Virus record (IMG/VR): IMGVR_UViG_3300023223_000374
Location: 1 to 26,531 of that record
DNA from: a virus
Reading direction: 5' to 3' (one strand)
Length of the DNA: 26,531 nucleotides
Below are positions 4,219-19,482 of the stretch, one piece after another. Every line of letters begins with the position of its first letter. The stretch's first letter is position 1. The translations under genes were made by a program, and so were the position numbers. The notes below the pieces were generated by a model that saw only the letters and a list, made by a program, of their open reading frames with translations, ran no database searches and had not been told where the DNA came from.

Positions 4219-4561
4219 TTTTAAAATCCCTTATAAGTTCTAATGCTCTATCTTCATCACCCGTACACTCATGCAATGCTTTAGCTAGCTCTGTTGCTCT
4301 TTCAGTTCCCCCGTAACGCTCCCAGAACACCGACTCGCCCCACAACCTCTCTTTATCGTGGCAACCAGTCCAGCCTATCCCAGAGCAGCACAGAGGGACT
4401 ATATGCGAATCATCCGGCTTAAACCCCATACCGCCACCGTTATTCTTACGGATATGTGCCGCTTGAGTACGCCCCTCCTTCCCACATATACAAGCGAGGC
4501 TCGCGATGAATTTACGATGCTTACGGGACTTAATGCGCTCATGTTTAAAGTTGGAAACCAT
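4208..4561 (-). CDS. HNH-type nuclease, DUF968/Ref-like
   Basis: A 117-residue protein. CxC at 24-26, AAHIR with H36, and HIVPLCCSGIGWTGCHDKE (about 53-71) form the layout of the DUF968 group of phage HNH endonucleases, related to P1 Ref and found where other phages carry RusA or NinG. It probably cuts DNA during recombination or resolves branched intermediates. The Shine-Dalgarno is weak. It sits between an SSB-like gene and the NinB-like gene, consistent with a recombination cassette. The family is fairly clear; the substrate is inferred. Confidence 0.7.
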   Translation of the reverse strand: MVSNFKHERIKSRKHRKFIASLACICGKEGRTQAAHIRKNNGGGMGFKPDDSHIVPLCCSGIGWTGCHDKERLWGESVFWERYGGTERATELAKALHECTGDEDRALELIRDFKNEN

Positions 4562-4575
4562 GTTTTACTCTTATA

Positions 4576-4845
4576 TTACAACATCTTAGCAAATGGAATC
4601 TCATCACTAAAATCTTCTGGAATACTAGGAGCGCTCTGCACCGCCTCCTTAGCAGCTTGATAGCCCTCTCCCTTCATCTTTGGCGGGAATACCTTTACCC
4701 ATTGTCCGAGGAACTTAATAACATATTCCCCTTCCTCCTCGTTTAGCCAGAGGCTTCCCAGCTGGGTATTCTTCCACTTGGTTTCACCGTTTTTTTCGTA
4801 TTTCTCACCGTGGACAATATCGCCCAGTATTTTAAGTTTACTCAT
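4576..4845 (-). CDS. Putative single-stranded DNA-binding protein
   Basis: An 89-residue protein. The ATG at 4845 is chosen because AAGGAGA lies upstream and it overlaps the previous stop by eight bases; an earlier in-frame ATG at 4893 lacks this. The first 55 residues alternate as expected for a small beta-barrel (ILGDIVHGEKYEKNG, then ALW-like and VIKFLGQWVKVFPPK strands). The C-terminus is PEDFSDEIPF followed by four residues. DEIPF closely resembles the DDDIPF tip with which SSB recruits partners, though here it is not the very end. With an annealase and NinB-like gene in the operon, ssDNA binding is the best guess. Confidence 0.5.
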   Translation of the reverse strand: MSKLKILGDIVHGEKYEKNGETKWKNTQLGSLWLNEEEGEYVIKFLGQWVKVFPPKMKGEGYQAAKEAVQSAPSIPEDFSDEIPFAKML

Positions 4846-7708: not shown

Positions 7709-7955
7709 AATATTACTTTGGTATCACACGCGCCCTGTTGATTACGCGGGCGATCTTGGGCAAAAGTACGTTGACGAGCAAACCGCATACTTCACCGAAG
7801 AGGGGCTTCTTGACTGCGACCTTGCTGGGGTGTTTGGAAAAAACACAGTCTATAAAATGACAGAGCAAGGACATTTCTACGTAGAGCATGGAATATGTGC
7901 CGTACCCCTTCCCGTGCAAACATTCGCAATTCCACACAAGGACACAACCCCATGA
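7689..7955 (+). CDS. Small phage protein, winged-helix-like
   Basis: An 88-residue protein whose start lies inside the end of the HTH gene. The pattern SPAQIEILLWYHTRP, then EEGLLDC, then VYKMTEQGHFYVEHGICAVPLPVQTF resembles a common small phage protein in which a winged-helix-like core (LT-x-x-G) precedes a PLP motif. The family has no proven function that I know. It is joined to the next gene by ATGA. Confidence 0.65.
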   Translation: MSPAQIEILLWYHTRPVDYAGDLGQKYVDEQTAYFTEEGLLDCDLAGVFGKNTVYKMTEQGHFYVEHGICAVPLPVQTFAIPHKDTTP

Positions 7956-8188
7956 AAACAGAACATAAAAAAGACGAGCTTGAGGGGTGGCAACCGATTG
8001 ATACAGCGCCCAGAGATGGGTCTACAATGCTAATTACCACACAGTGGGGGGTAATGTTTGTTGGTTATTGGTATATCCCGTCAGAAAAGGAAGCGTCCGA
8101 GCCGTATTGGAGGCCAGTAGGCACAAGAATAGCCGCTAAACCCTCTCACTGGATGCCCCTGCCTAACCCACCCGCAAACAAAGACTAA
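7952..8188 (+). CDS. DUF551-like protein
   Basis: A 78-residue protein. The start at 7952 is set by the ATGA overlap; an upstream in-frame ATG at 7895 would overlap the previous gene heavily. It has the DUF551 signature: GWQPIDTAPRDGSTML near the N-terminus and HWMPLPNPP at the end, with a GYW strand between. DUF551 proteins are common in phages and prophages and have no known role. It is the last gene before the long non-coding stretch. Confidence 0.75.
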   Translation: MKTEHKKDELEGWQPIDTAPRDGSTMLITTQWGVMFVGYWYIPSEKEASEPYWRPVGTRIAAKPSHWMPLPNPPANKD

Positions 8189-8212
8189 CCCCTATACCTA
8201 ATTCCCTAACTA

Positions 8213-8246
8213 GCCCTGCATCTTAAACTATGCGGGGCGTTCTTTT
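8213..8246 (+). terminator. Terminator-like hairpin after the early rightward genes
   Basis: GCCCTGCA (8213-8220) pairs with TGCGGGGC (8231-8238), with one G-U pair and a ten-base loop, followed by GTTCTTTT. The same region offers a rival stem, CATCTTAAA (8219-8227) with TTTAAGATG (8244-8252). Two mutually exclusive stems could make this a switch. A plain terminator is simpler. Confidence 0.5.
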
Positions 8247-8588
8247 AAGATGGTTTGGCAAGGGGGAGTTGGCAGGTCGCTACTCCTACTTACTTTGCAC
8301 GGTTGCGAAATCCAAACACCATAGTCACTTCAAGGGTTTCCCCTATCTCGAATCACAAAGCATAAGCTCGTCAACTTAACGGGTCTGCATTTCCCCGCCT
8401 CAACTCACCTATCATTATAAACTATACCTAAGTTAAAGCAAGTAAGATTGTTTGCAGGTAGTGGGTCTGGCAGGTTGAGTCGCAACACACGAAGTTTACC
8501 TTTATCTCCTGCTTTTAACACTATCACCCGTTAGGGCAGACCCCGTAGGCTAAGCCTGTATGTATTATATCAGTATAGAAGGTGTTTA

Positions 8589-8739
8589 CAAGGGGGAGTT
8601 TGTGAGCATGCAGGGTATCCCCCGCTCTATTGTTGGACTTCTTACCTCCGATCCAACGGCCGAATGTGTTACTAAAGGGTAAGCGTTCACACATACAAGG
8701 CTGCTCACAAAACCAGTATAAACTTTATTTACCCCCTTG
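8589..8739 (+). other. RNA domain with two stacked long helices
   Basis: CAAGGGGG (8589-8596) pairs with CCCCCTTG (8732-8739). Two bases further in, TTTGTGAGCA (8599-8608) pairs with TGCTCACAAA (8702-8711). Inside lie GTTGGA/TCCAAC and ATGTGT/ACACAT arms. Perfect eight- and ten-pair helices nested this closely are unlikely by chance. An alternative partner for the outer strand is 8258-8266. Confidence 0.5.
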
Positions 8740-8781
8740 CAAGACAATAATACATGGTGTAGAGTTTAATAACTAAGCGGC

Positions 8782-8855
8782 ATTGTGGGCTGTGAAGAAA
8801 CCTTTGACGTAGTCTGTAGTGCCACAATCACGCAGATTACCTCAGAGGTTTTTTT
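8782..8855 (+). other. Possible pseudoknot followed by T7
   Basis: ATTGTGG (8782-8788) pairs with CCACAAT (8822-8828). AAACCT in its loop (8798-8803) can pair with AGGTTT (8846-8851) downstream, giving an H-type pseudoknot. A run of seven T (8849-8855) overlaps the last strand, and a small ACCT-CAG-AGGT hairpin competes. This could be a terminator splitting the region into two RNAs. Confidence 0.3.
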
Positions 8856-8963
8856 GTGCCTCAATTGCTTTACGTTCTTTTGGGGAATATCCGTACAGCT
8901 CTTATGATATATTCCTACACTGGTTGCTAAGCCCCAGAAGTAATTTAGATACCTCGGGGGCAC
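8856..8963 (+). other. Layered RNA arm
   Basis: Successive nested pairings: GTGCCTC (8856-8862) with GGGGCAC (8957-8963), AATTG (8863-8867) with TAATT (8941-8945), CTTTTGGGG (8877-8885) with CCCCAGAAG (8932-8940), then GGAATAT (8884-8890) with ATATTCC (8909-8915), sharing a boundary base or two. Each of the first three contains a G-U pair. This is typical of one long RNA arm with internal loops. Confidence 0.5.
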
Positions 8964-8973
8964 TTTACCTGAA

Positions 8974-9226
8974 GGTTATTTTAAGAGTATGCGGCGTGGA
9001 AAGCTAGGTATGTCTAACACTGATACCTTGGAGACACGCAGAGTTGAGCGGCTTGGAAGGATGTTATCTCGCCTGTGTTGGAATACAAGTTAGGTAAACA
9101 AGCGGAAGACAGGAGCATCCTATAAGCTTGGTGAAAATATTTACGTCTGTCCCTCAATGCGAGGTGCTAACTAACACCAAGTATAATTCAGCAGGATTAG
9201 CGCCCTGCCATACTCTTAAAGTGACT
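8974..9226 (+). other. RNA multibranch domain closed by an 18-pair helix
   Basis: TTTAAGAGTATG (8980-8991) is perfectly complementary to 9209-9220. Six more pairs including three G-U extend it outward to 8974/9226. Inside are arms GCGTG/CACGC (8994/9035) holding AGGTAT/ATACCT (9006/9023), AGGATG/CATCCT (9058/9116) holding CCTGT/ACAGG (9072/9109), CTTGGTG/CACCAAG (9127/9175) holding CCTC/GAGG, and GCAGG/CCTGC (9191/9204). All are compatible and form a four-arm junction. Confidence 0.55.
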
Positions 9227-9400
9227 GGAGGGGTTTCCGACCCGCTCAAATGCTTGATATAGGCTATGAGTGCAACACAGCGTTTTCGTACGATACTATG
9301 ATAGTTCTTACAACTGAATTAAATGTAAGTCGGGGGTGAAGGGCAACACTATAAAATAGCTAGCTGTGCTAAACGAGGCTAATATATATCTCCCTTGGTG

Positions 9401-9436
9401 CCGTTGTGATGTACGTGAGTATATCGGGGATAACGG
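9401..9436 (+). other. RNA hairpin with a GNRA tetraloop
   Basis: CCGTTGT (9401-9407) pairs with ATAACGG (9430-9436). Directly inside it GATGTAC (9408-9414) pairs with GTATATC (9419-9425) around a GTGA loop; a GGGG bulge (9426-9429) interrupts one side. Fourteen pairs, two of them G-U, capped by a GNRA loop are a strong RNA signature. Confidence 0.5.
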
Positions 9437-9512
9437 AAAAGGAACTATGACTTTAAATTAATTAAGGCTACTACACTGCGTAATTATTAAACATAACTAA
9501 AGGAGAGATACT

Positions 9513-9971
9513 ATGGATAAACTAAAAATGGCGCAGGATATTCTTACAAACCCTATGGCTATGGGGGGAGAATGGTGCGGGGGGTTTAACTCCAGAATAC
9601 TAGGCGACACCTACAGCGAGTCCATTGGCGTAGGCGATAGAGAGAGGCTGTGTGGTTGGGTATCGGCTGACGATATGATAAAAGAAGGCAGGCTTTTCTA
9701 CAGGCATATTTTCCCCCACGGCTGCGGCACACATTCCTTTTCTTACGGCGGGATGCAAGTATGCAACTCCTGCAATAGAGATCGCCTAGAAAAACCTTGG
9801 TGGGCTATTAAGGTTTATAAAGATGGTGATGCGTGGTGTGTTGTTGGGTTGGGGTTTGAAGACCTTCAATCGTCCGATAATTACGCTTTCGGTGGCACAA
9901 AAGACGAGGCTTTGTCAGCATACCAAGGCTTGTTTAGTCCACCTACAGGCAGCGAGGACGCGGCGCCATGA
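9513..9971 (+). CDS. Hypothetical protein with Cys/His pairs
   Basis: A 152-residue protein with AAAGGAGAGA upstream of the ATG at 9513. It is rich in Gly, Trp and aromatic residues. HGCGTH and CNSCNRD in the middle (about residues 69-91) could form a zinc site. A KPWWAIKVYKDGDAWCVVGLGFEDL strand-rich region follows. No family recognised. It is the first gene after the structured RNA region and is linked to the next by ATGA. Confidence 0.65.
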   Translation: MDKLKMAQDILTNPMAMGGEWCGGFNSRILGDTYSESIGVGDRERLCGWVSADDMIKEGRLFYRHIFPHGCGTHSFSYGGMQVCNSCNRDRLEKPWWAIKVYKDGDAWCVVGLGFEDLQSSDNYAFGGTKDEALSAYQGLFSPPTGSEDAAP

Positions 9972-10363: not shown

Positions 10364-10867
10364 ATGAAGGTTCGTGAACTTCCAGAACTAGAAAAATTAA
10401 ACAAACAATTCCATTATGACTTTGCAACAGGGTTGCTTTACCGTAAGAAATTAAGGTCAGGTTCTTTTGTGTTGAAAGAGGTAGGGTCTCCGTTGAATGG
10501 CTATGTAGTGGTCGGGTCGGGAGGCGCAACTTATTACGCTCACCGCATAATTTGGAAAATGATGGCGGGTGAAGACTTTTCGGGCGAGATAGACCACATC
10601 AACGGAGATCGTTCTGATAACAGGATAGAGAACCTAAGGCAAGTTAGCAAACAAGAGAATAGGAAGAATAGAAAGCGCCCCAAAAGCAACACCACAGGGC
10701 ATATGGGAATATCTTGGAATAAGAGATCCTGCGCGTATAGAGTGCGCTTGGCGGTAAATAAAAAAACGCACTATCTCGGTTATTACAAAGAATTAGATGA
10801 CGCAATAAAGGCATGGGAAAAAGGCCGTGAGTATTACGGGTTTCATAAAAACCACGGAAGAGAATAA
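10364..10867 (+). CDS. HNH homing endonuclease with AP2 domain
   Basis: A 167-residue free-standing homing endonuclease. AHR at 59-61, DHING at 77-81 and DNRIENL (85-91) form the HNH_3 beta-beta-alpha metal site. A basic linker (about 98-108) leads to an AP2-type DNA-binding domain (TGHMGISW from 111, then YRVRLAVNKKTHYLGYYKELDDAIKAW). Such proteins cut an allele lacking the gene and spread it by repair. It stands apart from its neighbours, with spacers on both sides rather than the overlaps usual here, as expected for an inserted gene. No intron or intein is seen. Confidence 0.85.
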   Translation: MKVRELPELEKLNKQFHYDFATGLLYRKKLRSGSFVLKEVGSPLNGYVVVGSGGATYYAHRIIWKMMAGEDFSGEIDHINGDRSDNRIENLRQVSKQENRKNRKRPKSNTTGHMGISWNKRSCAYRVRLAVNKKTHYLGYYKELDDAIKAWEKGREYYGFHKNHGRE

Positions 10868-13859: not shown

Positions 13860-14041
13860 TGGATGATAAGCATGATGTAAGGCACGCTTTAGATGTTTTC
13901 CACGGATTGCTCACGGCATTAAATAACGACATTAAGCGGTCGACAAACGAAAATATAATACCCATTGACGCGGTGGATTTGAAATATAAGAACGCACACG
14001 CCGCCCTACAAAACCTGAAAACAAAGGAGATAACAGATTGA
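13859..14041 (+). CDS. Hypothetical protein
   Basis: A 60-residue protein. The ATG at 13859 is set by the TGATG junction; the longer frame from 13799 would lie on the preceding gene. It is helical (HALDVFHGLLTALNNDI, then YKNAHAALQNLKT). Unknown function. Its end overlaps the TTG start of the next gene. Confidence 0.6.
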   Translation: MDDKHDVRHALDVFHGLLTALNNDIKRSTNENIIPIDAVDLKYKNAHAALQNLKTKEITD

Positions 14042-14562
14042 AAGACCGTAGAGAGATTTGGAAAGCAGTAGTGGGGTTTGATGGAGCTTATGAGGTATCA
14101 GACCTTGGCCGCGTTCGCTCAATCGATAGGGTTATTGTCACAAGTGCGGGTGTGTCTAGGGCGATAAAGGGCGCAATAAAGGGAGGGAGGGTAACCCCGT
14201 ATGGGTATCATAGGGTCAATCTTTGCGTAAAAGATAAGCGAACCAATAAATTCGTACATAGGCTCGTTATGGAGGCGTTTCTTGGTGAGAGTGAATTAAT
14301 GACTGACCACATAGACGGGATTAAAACCAACAATAACGTAGACAATTTAGAGTATGTCACCCCAAGGGAAAACGCACGCAGGTATCATGCGAGCAAGGGT
14401 GGCCTCCCTACTGGGGTTTCTGTTGGAAAAATTACAGGTGAATATTGCGCGAAAATACTTATCAACAGAAAGGCGGTGCACCTCGGCAACCACAAGACAA
14501 TAGAGGGCGCGCGAAACGCATATTTAGAAAAACTTGAATCAATAGGGGAAAAAGAAGGATGA
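14038..14562 (+). CDS. HNH homing endonuclease, NUMOD4-HNH-AP2
   Basis: A 174-residue homing endonuclease. NUMOD4 (EIWKAVVGFDGAYEVSDLGRVRS) is at 6-28, HNH with VHRLVMEAF (73-81), DHIDG (90-94) and VDNLEYVT (101-108), and an AP2-like end (about 125-165). It should cut DNA at a homing site and copy itself. The start is probably TTG at 14038, with AAGGAG eight bases upstream and a TTGA overlap with the gene before; no nearby ATG fits. Unlike the copy at 10364 it is well fitted into the chain of overlapping genes, which suggests an old insertion. Confidence 0.85.
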   Translation: MKDRREIWKAVVGFDGAYEVSDLGRVRSIDRVIVTSAGVSRAIKGAIKGGRVTPYGYHRVNLCVKDKRTNKFVHRLVMEAFLGESELMTDHIDGIKTNNNVDNLEYVTPRENARRYHASKGGLPTGVSVGKITGEYCAKILINRKAVHLGNHKTIEGARNAYLEKLESIGEKEG

Positions 14563-14842: not shown

Positions 14843-15339
14843 CCCCACAAGCCCAAAAGATATGCACAATGCTCGAAGCTGTGAACGATGATACAGCGGT
14901 GGAGGTGTTGGGTGAGATTGACGTTTTAATGGCGTTGTATGTAGCGGAAAATGTAACAGATGATGGGCGGCAAATCTTTGTAGATAGGAGTTTGTTTGCC
15001 GTTTACAAAACAGACACCCTAGATTGTGAGCTGTTCCGCAAAAAGGGCTCTTGGTTAGAAACATCTGATTTATTTATATGCGGCAACACTGATAAACAAT
15101 ACACCCGCTCCAGAGACGCGCTCAAGGCTGTTCGTGATGCTGAGTTGGAGGGGCATATGCTCACTATAATCACAGACTGTAACAGGAAAACATACGCGAC
15201 TATAACAATTCCTGCGCACAGCGAGGGGCTTGGGGACTATTTCGAATATTTTGAAGCCCCTAAACTACACACAGAAACCATCGCAGAGGCACACGCAATA
15301 ATAGCTGCGATTGACTGGAAGAGGCAAAATGATGAATGA
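14839..15339 (+). CDS. Hypothetical protein, phage ABA-sandwich-like end
   Basis: A 166-residue protein starting with GTG in a GTGA overlap. The C-terminal half (TRSRDALKAVRDAE, a strand-rich part, then ETIAEAHAIIAAIDW) resembles the small alpha-beta-alpha sandwich domain common in unnamed phage proteins. Its last residues, IDWKRQNDE, are nearly repeated at the end of the next gene, a homing endonuclease. The function is unknown. Confidence 0.65.
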   Translation: MTPQAQKICTMLEAVNDDTAVEVLGEIDVLMALYVAENVTDDGRQIFVDRSLFAVYKTDTLDCELFRKKGSWLETSDLFICGNTDKQYTRSRDALKAVRDAELEGHMLTIITDCNRKTYATITIPAHSEGLGDYFEYFEAPKLHTETIAEAHAIIAAIDWKRQNDE

Positions 15340-15880
15340 GATTTGGACAAAAGTAGAGGGGTGGTCTTTTTATGAGGTGTCTAATCTTGGGCGCGTCAGG
15401 GTAATAAGTAGGACGGTAAACCCAAAAAACGGCGGGCGACCATACACCCGAGATGGTAGGGTTCTGGCTCATGGCATAAGTAATTGCGGATATCCCCGCG
15501 TATCATTTTATGAGAACAAAAGAAGAAAAACATATACAGTTCATTCACTGGTGGCCAATGCTTTTTGCTACAAACCGGAAGGGTCAGAGTGTGTCCACCA
15601 CAAGAACAGTATAAAAACAGACAACCGAGAGGATAATCTTGAGTGGGTAACTTTTAGAAAAAACATAATTGAAAAGTGGAAACATCACAGACCCATTAAA
15701 ACGGGCGCGCATCTGGTTAAAGGGAAAAAGGTTAGGCCGTGGCGCTCTTCCATCTGGGTTAGTAAGGAAAATTATGTTTGCCTTGGTTATTACGATACAG
15801 AAGATGAGGCTTGCGCCGCGTACAATGGAGCGACAAGATTAATGAAATCAATAGATTGGAAACGAGAGAATGACAGATAA
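15329..15880 (+). CDS. HNH homing endonuclease, NUMOD4-HNH-AP2
   Basis: A 183-residue homing endonuclease, ATG at 15329 (or 15332) inside the end of the gene before. NUMOD4 (EIWTKVEGWSFYEVSNLGRVR) starts near residue 4. The HNH part has VHSLVANAF, VHHKNSIKTDN and DNLEWVT; the first catalytic motif is HHKN rather than DHID. The C-terminal AP2-like part includes a LGYYDTEDEACAAYNGA helix. The final residues IDWKRENDR copy the ending of the upstream gene, so the overlap with the downstream gene is kept. It differs from the other two copies and is not a recent duplicate. Confidence 0.83.
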   Translation: MMNEIWTKVEGWSFYEVSNLGRVRVISRTVNPKNGGRPYTRDGRVLAHGISNCGYPRVSFYENKRRKTYTVHSLVANAFCYKPEGSECVHHKNSIKTDNREDNLEWVTFRKNIIEKWKHHRPIKTGAHLVKGKKVRPWRSSIWVSKENYVCLGYYDTEDEACAAYNGATRLMKSIDWKRENDR

Positions 15881-19040: not shown

Positions 19041-19198
19041 AACAAGTATTTGACGACCCAAACACAGAGTTATTCTTTAGGATGTGCGGCGGTAAGATTA
19101 AACCTGACTGGGCAAGGCACCTTGAGAGCAAAGGCATTGAAGTAAACCCAAGATGCTACATACCTCAGGAATACATAGACGAGATTAACGGGGAATGA
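19037..19198 (+). CDS. Small protein, unknown (53 aa)
   Basis: A 53-residue protein from an ATGA overlap at 19037. It carries FFRMCGGKIKPDWARHLESKGIEVNPRCY, with two Cys. It is the first of a string of tiny genes ahead of the terminase. The function is unknown. Confidence 0.6.
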   Translation: MKQVFDDPNTELFFRMCGGKIKPDWARHLESKGIEVNPRCYIPQEYIDEINGE

Positions 19199-19269
19199 AC
19201 TTTATATTCATAGTGGCCTGCATTGTTTGCGCCCTGTGGATTTGGAATATAATTGAGGAGTTAAGATGA
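19195..19269 (+). CDS. 24-residue single-helix membrane peptide
   Basis: A frame of 24 codons from an ATGA overlap (19195) to a TGA that overlaps the next ATG. Nearly all of it is hydrophobic (NFIFIVACIVCALWIWNII), then EELR. Coupling on both sides argues for translation, but it is at the limit of what can be supported. Confidence 0.45.
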   Translation: MNFIFIVACIVCALWIWNIIEELR

Positions 19270-19397
19270 GCACTGATGGTAAAGATATTATATGGTTAGT
19301 GCTGGGGTCAAAGGACTTTAGAGCAGCAACAAAATTATACATAATCAAAAACATTCTTCTAAGGAGAGTTAAGGGGTTATGGGATGCTAATTATTGA
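19266..19397 (+). CDS. Small basic protein (43 aa)
   Basis: A 43-residue frame starting in an ATGA overlap. A hydrophobic start (DIIWLVLGSK) is followed by a basic helix (KLYIIKNILLRRVKGLW). Possibly membrane-associated. No family recognised. Confidence 0.5.
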   Translation: MSTDGKDIIWLVLGSKDFRAATKLYIIKNILLRRVKGLWDANY

Positions 19398-19482
19398 TGA
19401 GCCCGAGACTGTGAGGGAATTCACACAAGAGCAAATAGACGCAGTTCTGAGGTACCAAACAACTTACGTGAAGGATGAGTGA
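19384..19482 (+). CDS. Small acidic peptide (32 aa)
   Basis: A 32-residue frame overlapping the end of the previous one by 14 bases, with AAGGGG upstream. Acidic: DEPETVREFTQEQIDAVLRY. It ends where the next gene starts. Plausible but short. Confidence 0.45.
   Translation: MLIIDEPETVREFTQEQIDAVLRYQTTYVKDE

Follow-up and report, generated by a model that had tools for sequence, protein, structure and literature searches.

The 1,324 bp at 8189-9512 of this viral contig, between genes 7895-8188 and 9513-9971, may be the source of a large RNA. The single most likely reading, to which we give a probability of roughly 0.4, is that the stretch specifies an orphan, structured, untranslated + strand RNA whose core spans about 8745-9495; its transcription, boundaries, strand and function are what we infer from the observations below. 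A large structured non-coding RNA is in keeping with the lack of genes and with a core, 8745-9495, that shows excess folding on the + strand and an unusually well-defined ensemble.

The window, by which we mean the whole 26,531 bp of viral DNA that was analysed, is otherwise densely coded with genes. Leftward genes run from 7408 to 2362 and include annealing-protein/exonuclease-like genes and genes for small proteins, and rightward genes run from 7508, the site of a Cro-like HTH gene, to the terminase and portal genes at 20-24 kb. The ORF-less stretch is placed after three short rightward genes; its upstream neighbour, 7895-8188, is DUF551-like/phrog_924, and the gene that follows it, 9513-9971, encodes a moron-like protein, homologues of which occur in phages of Pseudomonas, Vibrio and Leptospira. 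The sequence-only reading had called this a phage early region, a label that fits its position adjoining the putative Cro-like gene and beside divergent operons. A tRNA/tmRNA scan of the contig, which may be incomplete, found none, and the phage collection searched held no close relative of the contig. Three HNH endonuclease genes (phrog_99/phrog_59 families) lie within 5.5 kb, at 10364-10867, 14038-14562 and 15311-15880, which suggests homing-type mobile genes. A second, shorter stretch with no obvious gene (19041-19474, ~430 bp) is found upstream of the terminase genes.

That the stretch lacks credible genes had been claimed earlier and was borne out here. The longest ORF in 8189-9512 is 65 aa, and in all six frames stop codons are found at the density of chance (24-31 per ~440 codons, where base composition predicts 5.5%). 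Those 40-codon windows with the best codon usage each hold at least three stops, and no 40-codon window of the stretch reaches gene-like codon usage without stops. When 10 ORFs from it were compared with Pfam and PHROGs there was no significant match and at most one chance-level match (E 0.036). A decayed gene was rejected on the absence of codon bias and of significant family matches. Interior gaps of at least 1 kb are rare: the other contigs examined, 1.9 Mb in all, gave two such calls, of which one (contig L117) contains ORFs that the caller had missed.

The core folds better than its own shuffled sequence. The MFE of 8745-9495 (~750 nt) on the + strand is -229.6, where 200 dinucleotide shuffles give -202.0 +/- 6.95 (z -3.97), a z-score somewhat favoured by selection since the core boundaries were picked after helices had been seen. 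In this comparison, which the sequence-only reading had named as a possible refutation, the core stayed more stable than 200 of 200 shuffles. Its z on the + strand is also not reached by any of 24 segments of equal length taken from elsewhere in the contig (+ strand mean -0.13, sd 1.12, minimum -2.25; - strand minimum -3.08). The core has 107 pairs with P>0.9, compared with at most 105 in any of 60 shuffles, and an ensemble diversity below that of 58 of the 60. The orderly nesting described earlier was borne out in part: across 8213-9437 the fold surpasses shuffles to a moderate degree only (z -2.24 for the + strand, -1.98 for the - strand), and the excess lies in 8745-9495 on the + strand; the stretch upstream of the core is unexceptional on the + strand. 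Two features used to recognize large phage ncRNAs were found here, an ORF-less stretch of the 0.6-1.2 kb class in a phage genome (8189-9512) and a fold that surpasses shuffles in both stability and definition (8745-9495), the latter not being a specific one.

Much of the core excess is supplied by a hairpin at 8779-8869 (z -5.4), and among local 160-nt windows only the area of this hairpin stands out. With the hairpin left out, 8870-9450 has a z of about -2 on both strands and no strand preference, and within 8910-9290 the better fold is that of the - strand (-3.3 vs -1.9 on +). For the whole core the + strand is favoured by its composition (G>C) and by the enrichment of unpaired A relative to shuffles (z +1.1 on +, -2.4 on -). 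Enrichment of unpaired purines was dropped as evidence, as it tracks the unpaired fraction.

Six other ORF-less phage gaps (L002, L107, L140, L102, L091 and L077), chosen by length with structure disregarded, gave z ranging from 0.0 to -4.7 across the two strands; L140 is known to carry a C4 antisense RNA. Because comparable z are seen in these gaps, the folding excess separates the candidate from coding DNA and not from phage non-coding DNA. It is not specific to RNA genes and is by itself no proof of one, a warning that shuffle z-scores, which are high in ordinary phage gaps, cannot alone identify RNA genes. The L117 gaps were not counted in this negative control, being partly coding. In L117, 3950-5511 contains few ORFs, with repeated short proteins at 4311-4550 and 4572-4760 on the - strand, and carries two perfect CGATACGAATTCGTATCAAA copies 1,150 bp apart; z is -8.2 on the - strand.

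The candidate RNA would have a closed, branched fold, with a closing stem P1 (8746-8762/9471-9488; P 0.93 in the 8745-9500 fold), a long hairpin (8779-8869) and, in the centre, a domain that the pairing 8974-8991/9209-9226 holds together. Within the long hairpin (P 0.97, z -5.41), 8793-8821 pairs with 8829-8856 over 27 pairs and the element ends in TTTTTTT. A hairpin formed by GCCCCAGAAGTA/TACCTCGGGGGC at 8931-8961 is predicted with P 0.97 in the core fold and 0.63 in the full fold. Predicted on the + strand in both foldings are an arm at 9058-9121 closed by 9058-9065/9114-9121 (P 0.81-0.87), a layered hairpin at 9126-9182 (9126-9133/9175-9182, inner 9149-9155/9161-9167; P 0.79-0.96) and a GTGA (GNRA-type) capped hairpin at 9401-9436 (P 0.64-0.99), which is the GTGA-capped arm noted earlier at 9401.

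The helix 8974-8991/9209-9226, singled out by the sequence-only reading as the best, is present as described, with 18 continuous pairs (12 perfect, 3 Watson-Crick and 3 G-U) and P 0.99 in the 8745-9500 fold. A perfect 12-base complement occurred in 4.7% of 300 dinucleotide shuffles of 8213-9437, which agrees with the earlier chance estimate of about 0.05, and a stack of at least 18 pairs, G-U allowed, occurred in 1.7%. The stacking energy of the helix is not exceptional, and because 6 of 40 shuffles hold an equally good helix by this measure, the helix alone is weak evidence. Nor was it upheld as part of a unique fold. When the whole of 8190-9512 is folded, the helix gives way to 8323-8337/9212-9226, P1 is lost, and new pairings include 8301-8337 with 9212-9242. 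Since helices change with the flanking sequence, the structure depends on the 5' end of the transcript.

Directly after the upstream three-gene operon lies an intrinsic-terminator-like hairpin on the + strand (8213-8238; 9-bp stem then GTTCTTTTAA), which was picked out by a terminator scan and has a pair probability of 0.95 in the predicted fold. Pattern scans gave no convincing + strand sigma70-like promoter inside the gap, and the terminator scan gave no terminator at its 3' end, beyond 9440. The RNA, if real, probably arises within the long rightward early transcript, either as a segment of it or by processing, and would be copied after read-through of the terminator at 8213-8238. On the - strand, pattern scans alone point to a leftward sigma70-like promoter at 8591-8564 (TTGTAA-16-TATAAT, extended -10 TG) with a predicted TSS at about 8557. 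This strong leftward pattern sits inside a nested inverted-repeat domain at 8560-8755 (8560-8568/8747-8755, 8589-8596/8732-8739, 8599-8608/8702-8711 and inner hairpins), whose - strand (z -4.49; as stable in 0/60 shuffles) gives a better fold than its + strand (-2.28). The direct repeat CAAGGGGGAGTT at 8259-8270 (+) has an exact second copy at 8589-8600. Both copies are complementary to CCCCCTTG at 8732-8739, which can pair with either, so the two copies either compete for this partner or are shared protein sites. CAAGGGGG has four exact copies in the contig, three of them within 480 bp.

These signals could instead belong to a composite early control region and not to one RNA. The terminator at 8213-8238 would close the Cro-like operon, the leftward promoter would give an antisense or leader RNA, the inverted repeats (8560-8755, with the three clustered CAAGGGGG copies) would bind protein, and an attenuator at 8779-8862 would set read-through into the genes from 9513. 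The 27-pair hairpin runs into seven Ts and is mutually exclusive with an alternative 16-bp hairpin (8779-8794/8808-8823), an arrangement that looks attenuator-like. The attenuator-like hairpins, the CAAGGGGGAGTT/CCCCCTTG pairing and the - strand preference of 8560-8755 make such a region a serious rival to a single RNA, and it is the leading one. It would also account for the promoter and terminator patterns, the alternative hairpins at 8779-8856, the three CAAGGGGG copies within 480 bp and the concentration of folding excess in the hairpin at 8779-8869 and the repeat domain at 8560-8755. However, past the attenuator-like hairpin there are 650 bp more of ORF-less sequence, which exceeds the need of such a control region, promoter and terminator patterns are about as numerous across the whole region as in shuffles, and the alternative hairpin, with its 16 pairs, is far less strong than that of 27 pairs. 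On balance we regard a composite region as quite possible, if short of probable.

The inverted repeats at 8560-8755 might also act as DNA, in a replication origin or other DNA-level site. The stretch lies near the cumulative GC skew minimum, close to the switch between leftward and rightward genes, but gene orientation also explains this minimum. Iterons are absent, the direct repeats amount to a single 12-bp pair, and no replication initiator gene was identified beside the stretch in the contig, so that an origin appears distinctly unlikely.

The sequence-only reading had suggested that the region might be a GOLLD or ROOL RNA, and this identity was not upheld. The covariance search that it proposed was run against all 4,227 Rfam families with E up to 10 and permissive filters, and no credible match to GOLLD, ROOL or any other family was found in the stretch. 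The dedicated models for GOLLD (RF02032, conserved 3' region, gathering score 150 bits) and ROOL (RF03087, gathering score 99.1 bits) likewise gave no match at E<=10, though in one of the ROOL searches the control genomes were also without a match. A divergent GOLLD or ROOL would share the comparable length, the phage setting and the absence of ORFs, but given the empty permissive and dedicated searches and the absence of tRNA genes nearby we consider it very improbable.

Homologues of the stretch were sought in several sets, from which records very close to the contig's own may have been left out, and none was found. By blastn there was no homologue in phages, plasmids and E. coli, and no relatives of the stretch were present in viral contigs reached via the neighbouring proteins. 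Relatives found through the terminase share mainly the packaging module with the contig, and their records gave only chance-level matches to the stretch. Four phage genomes with homologues of the gene-9513 protein were examined, and no comparable stretch lies beside the homologue in them. In exact-motif scans of viral contigs all matches share the seed only. A set of 7 bacterial or archaeal genomes that have related prophages or contigs gave no homologue, nor did 369 genomes from the class to which one of them, the Marinobacter relative, belongs. The closest relative, L002, has a terminase that is 75% identical, and its gap was rejected as a homologue, being a different AT-rich region. That gap (L002 2149-3175) is a 1-kb AT-rich ORF-less stretch with several operator-like CGATACG-type repeats, unrelated to 8189-9512. 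The sets searched thus supplied no homologue for covariation, which is the accepted proof.

The lack of relatives in any set searched, and a folding excess that resembles that of other phage gaps, would be expected if the DNA were without function or newly acquired and no RNA in it were under selection, its structure arising incidentally from terminators and palindromes. However, none of the 200 shuffles reached the stability of the core, and gaps this long were rare in the 1.9 Mb examined. Phages rarely retain more than 1 kb of unused DNA. We therefore think this explanation unlikely.

Large structured phage RNAs are few, are abundant where present, and have no known function. More tentatively, the structured + strand RNA that we prefer may belong to a new class of large structured RNAs in phages, ~750 nt long, made in the early phase and without kinship to GOLLD, ROOL or the ICP1 transcript; we hold this to be possible but doubtful. 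By analogy with those three, the candidate might act as RNA itself in infected cells, where it could serve as a scaffold, for instance, or as a sink that takes up host factors. If the reading is true, another unrelated large RNA, located in an early region, widens the known set and suggests that many ORF-less stretches of phages hide such RNAs.

Phage early leaders with terminator and antitermination control are known from the lambda tR1/nutR region. Like that leader, the stretch follows a Cro-like gene and has terminator hairpins and then a rightward operon, but unlike it the stretch is more than 1 kb long. With GOLLD it shares the size class, the phage setting and an ornate predicted fold, and with ROOL the size class and phage setting; it differs from both in giving no covariance-model match and in having no neighbouring tRNAs, GOLLD often being found beside tRNA genes. 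GOLLD has been reported to form an RNA-only multimeric cage (PMC12286853). In the Vibrio phage ICP1, an ORF-less transcript of ~800 nt has been verified by RNA-seq and is the most abundant of that phage (PMC7567579). The ICP1 stretch (NC_015157 80097-81107) shares no sequence similarity with 8189-9512, its transcription is proven, and its RNA ends in an ordinary terminator. In both, however, about 1 kb without ORFs lies in a dense phage genome with no tRNA genes nearby, no match rises above an Rfam gathering score, and the folding excess is comparable. Proven large phage RNAs thus also escape Rfam. In the same folding test the ICP1 stretch gave z -2.9 when 751 nt were folded and -1.9 for 840 nt, and the candidate core folds at least as well as this proven case.
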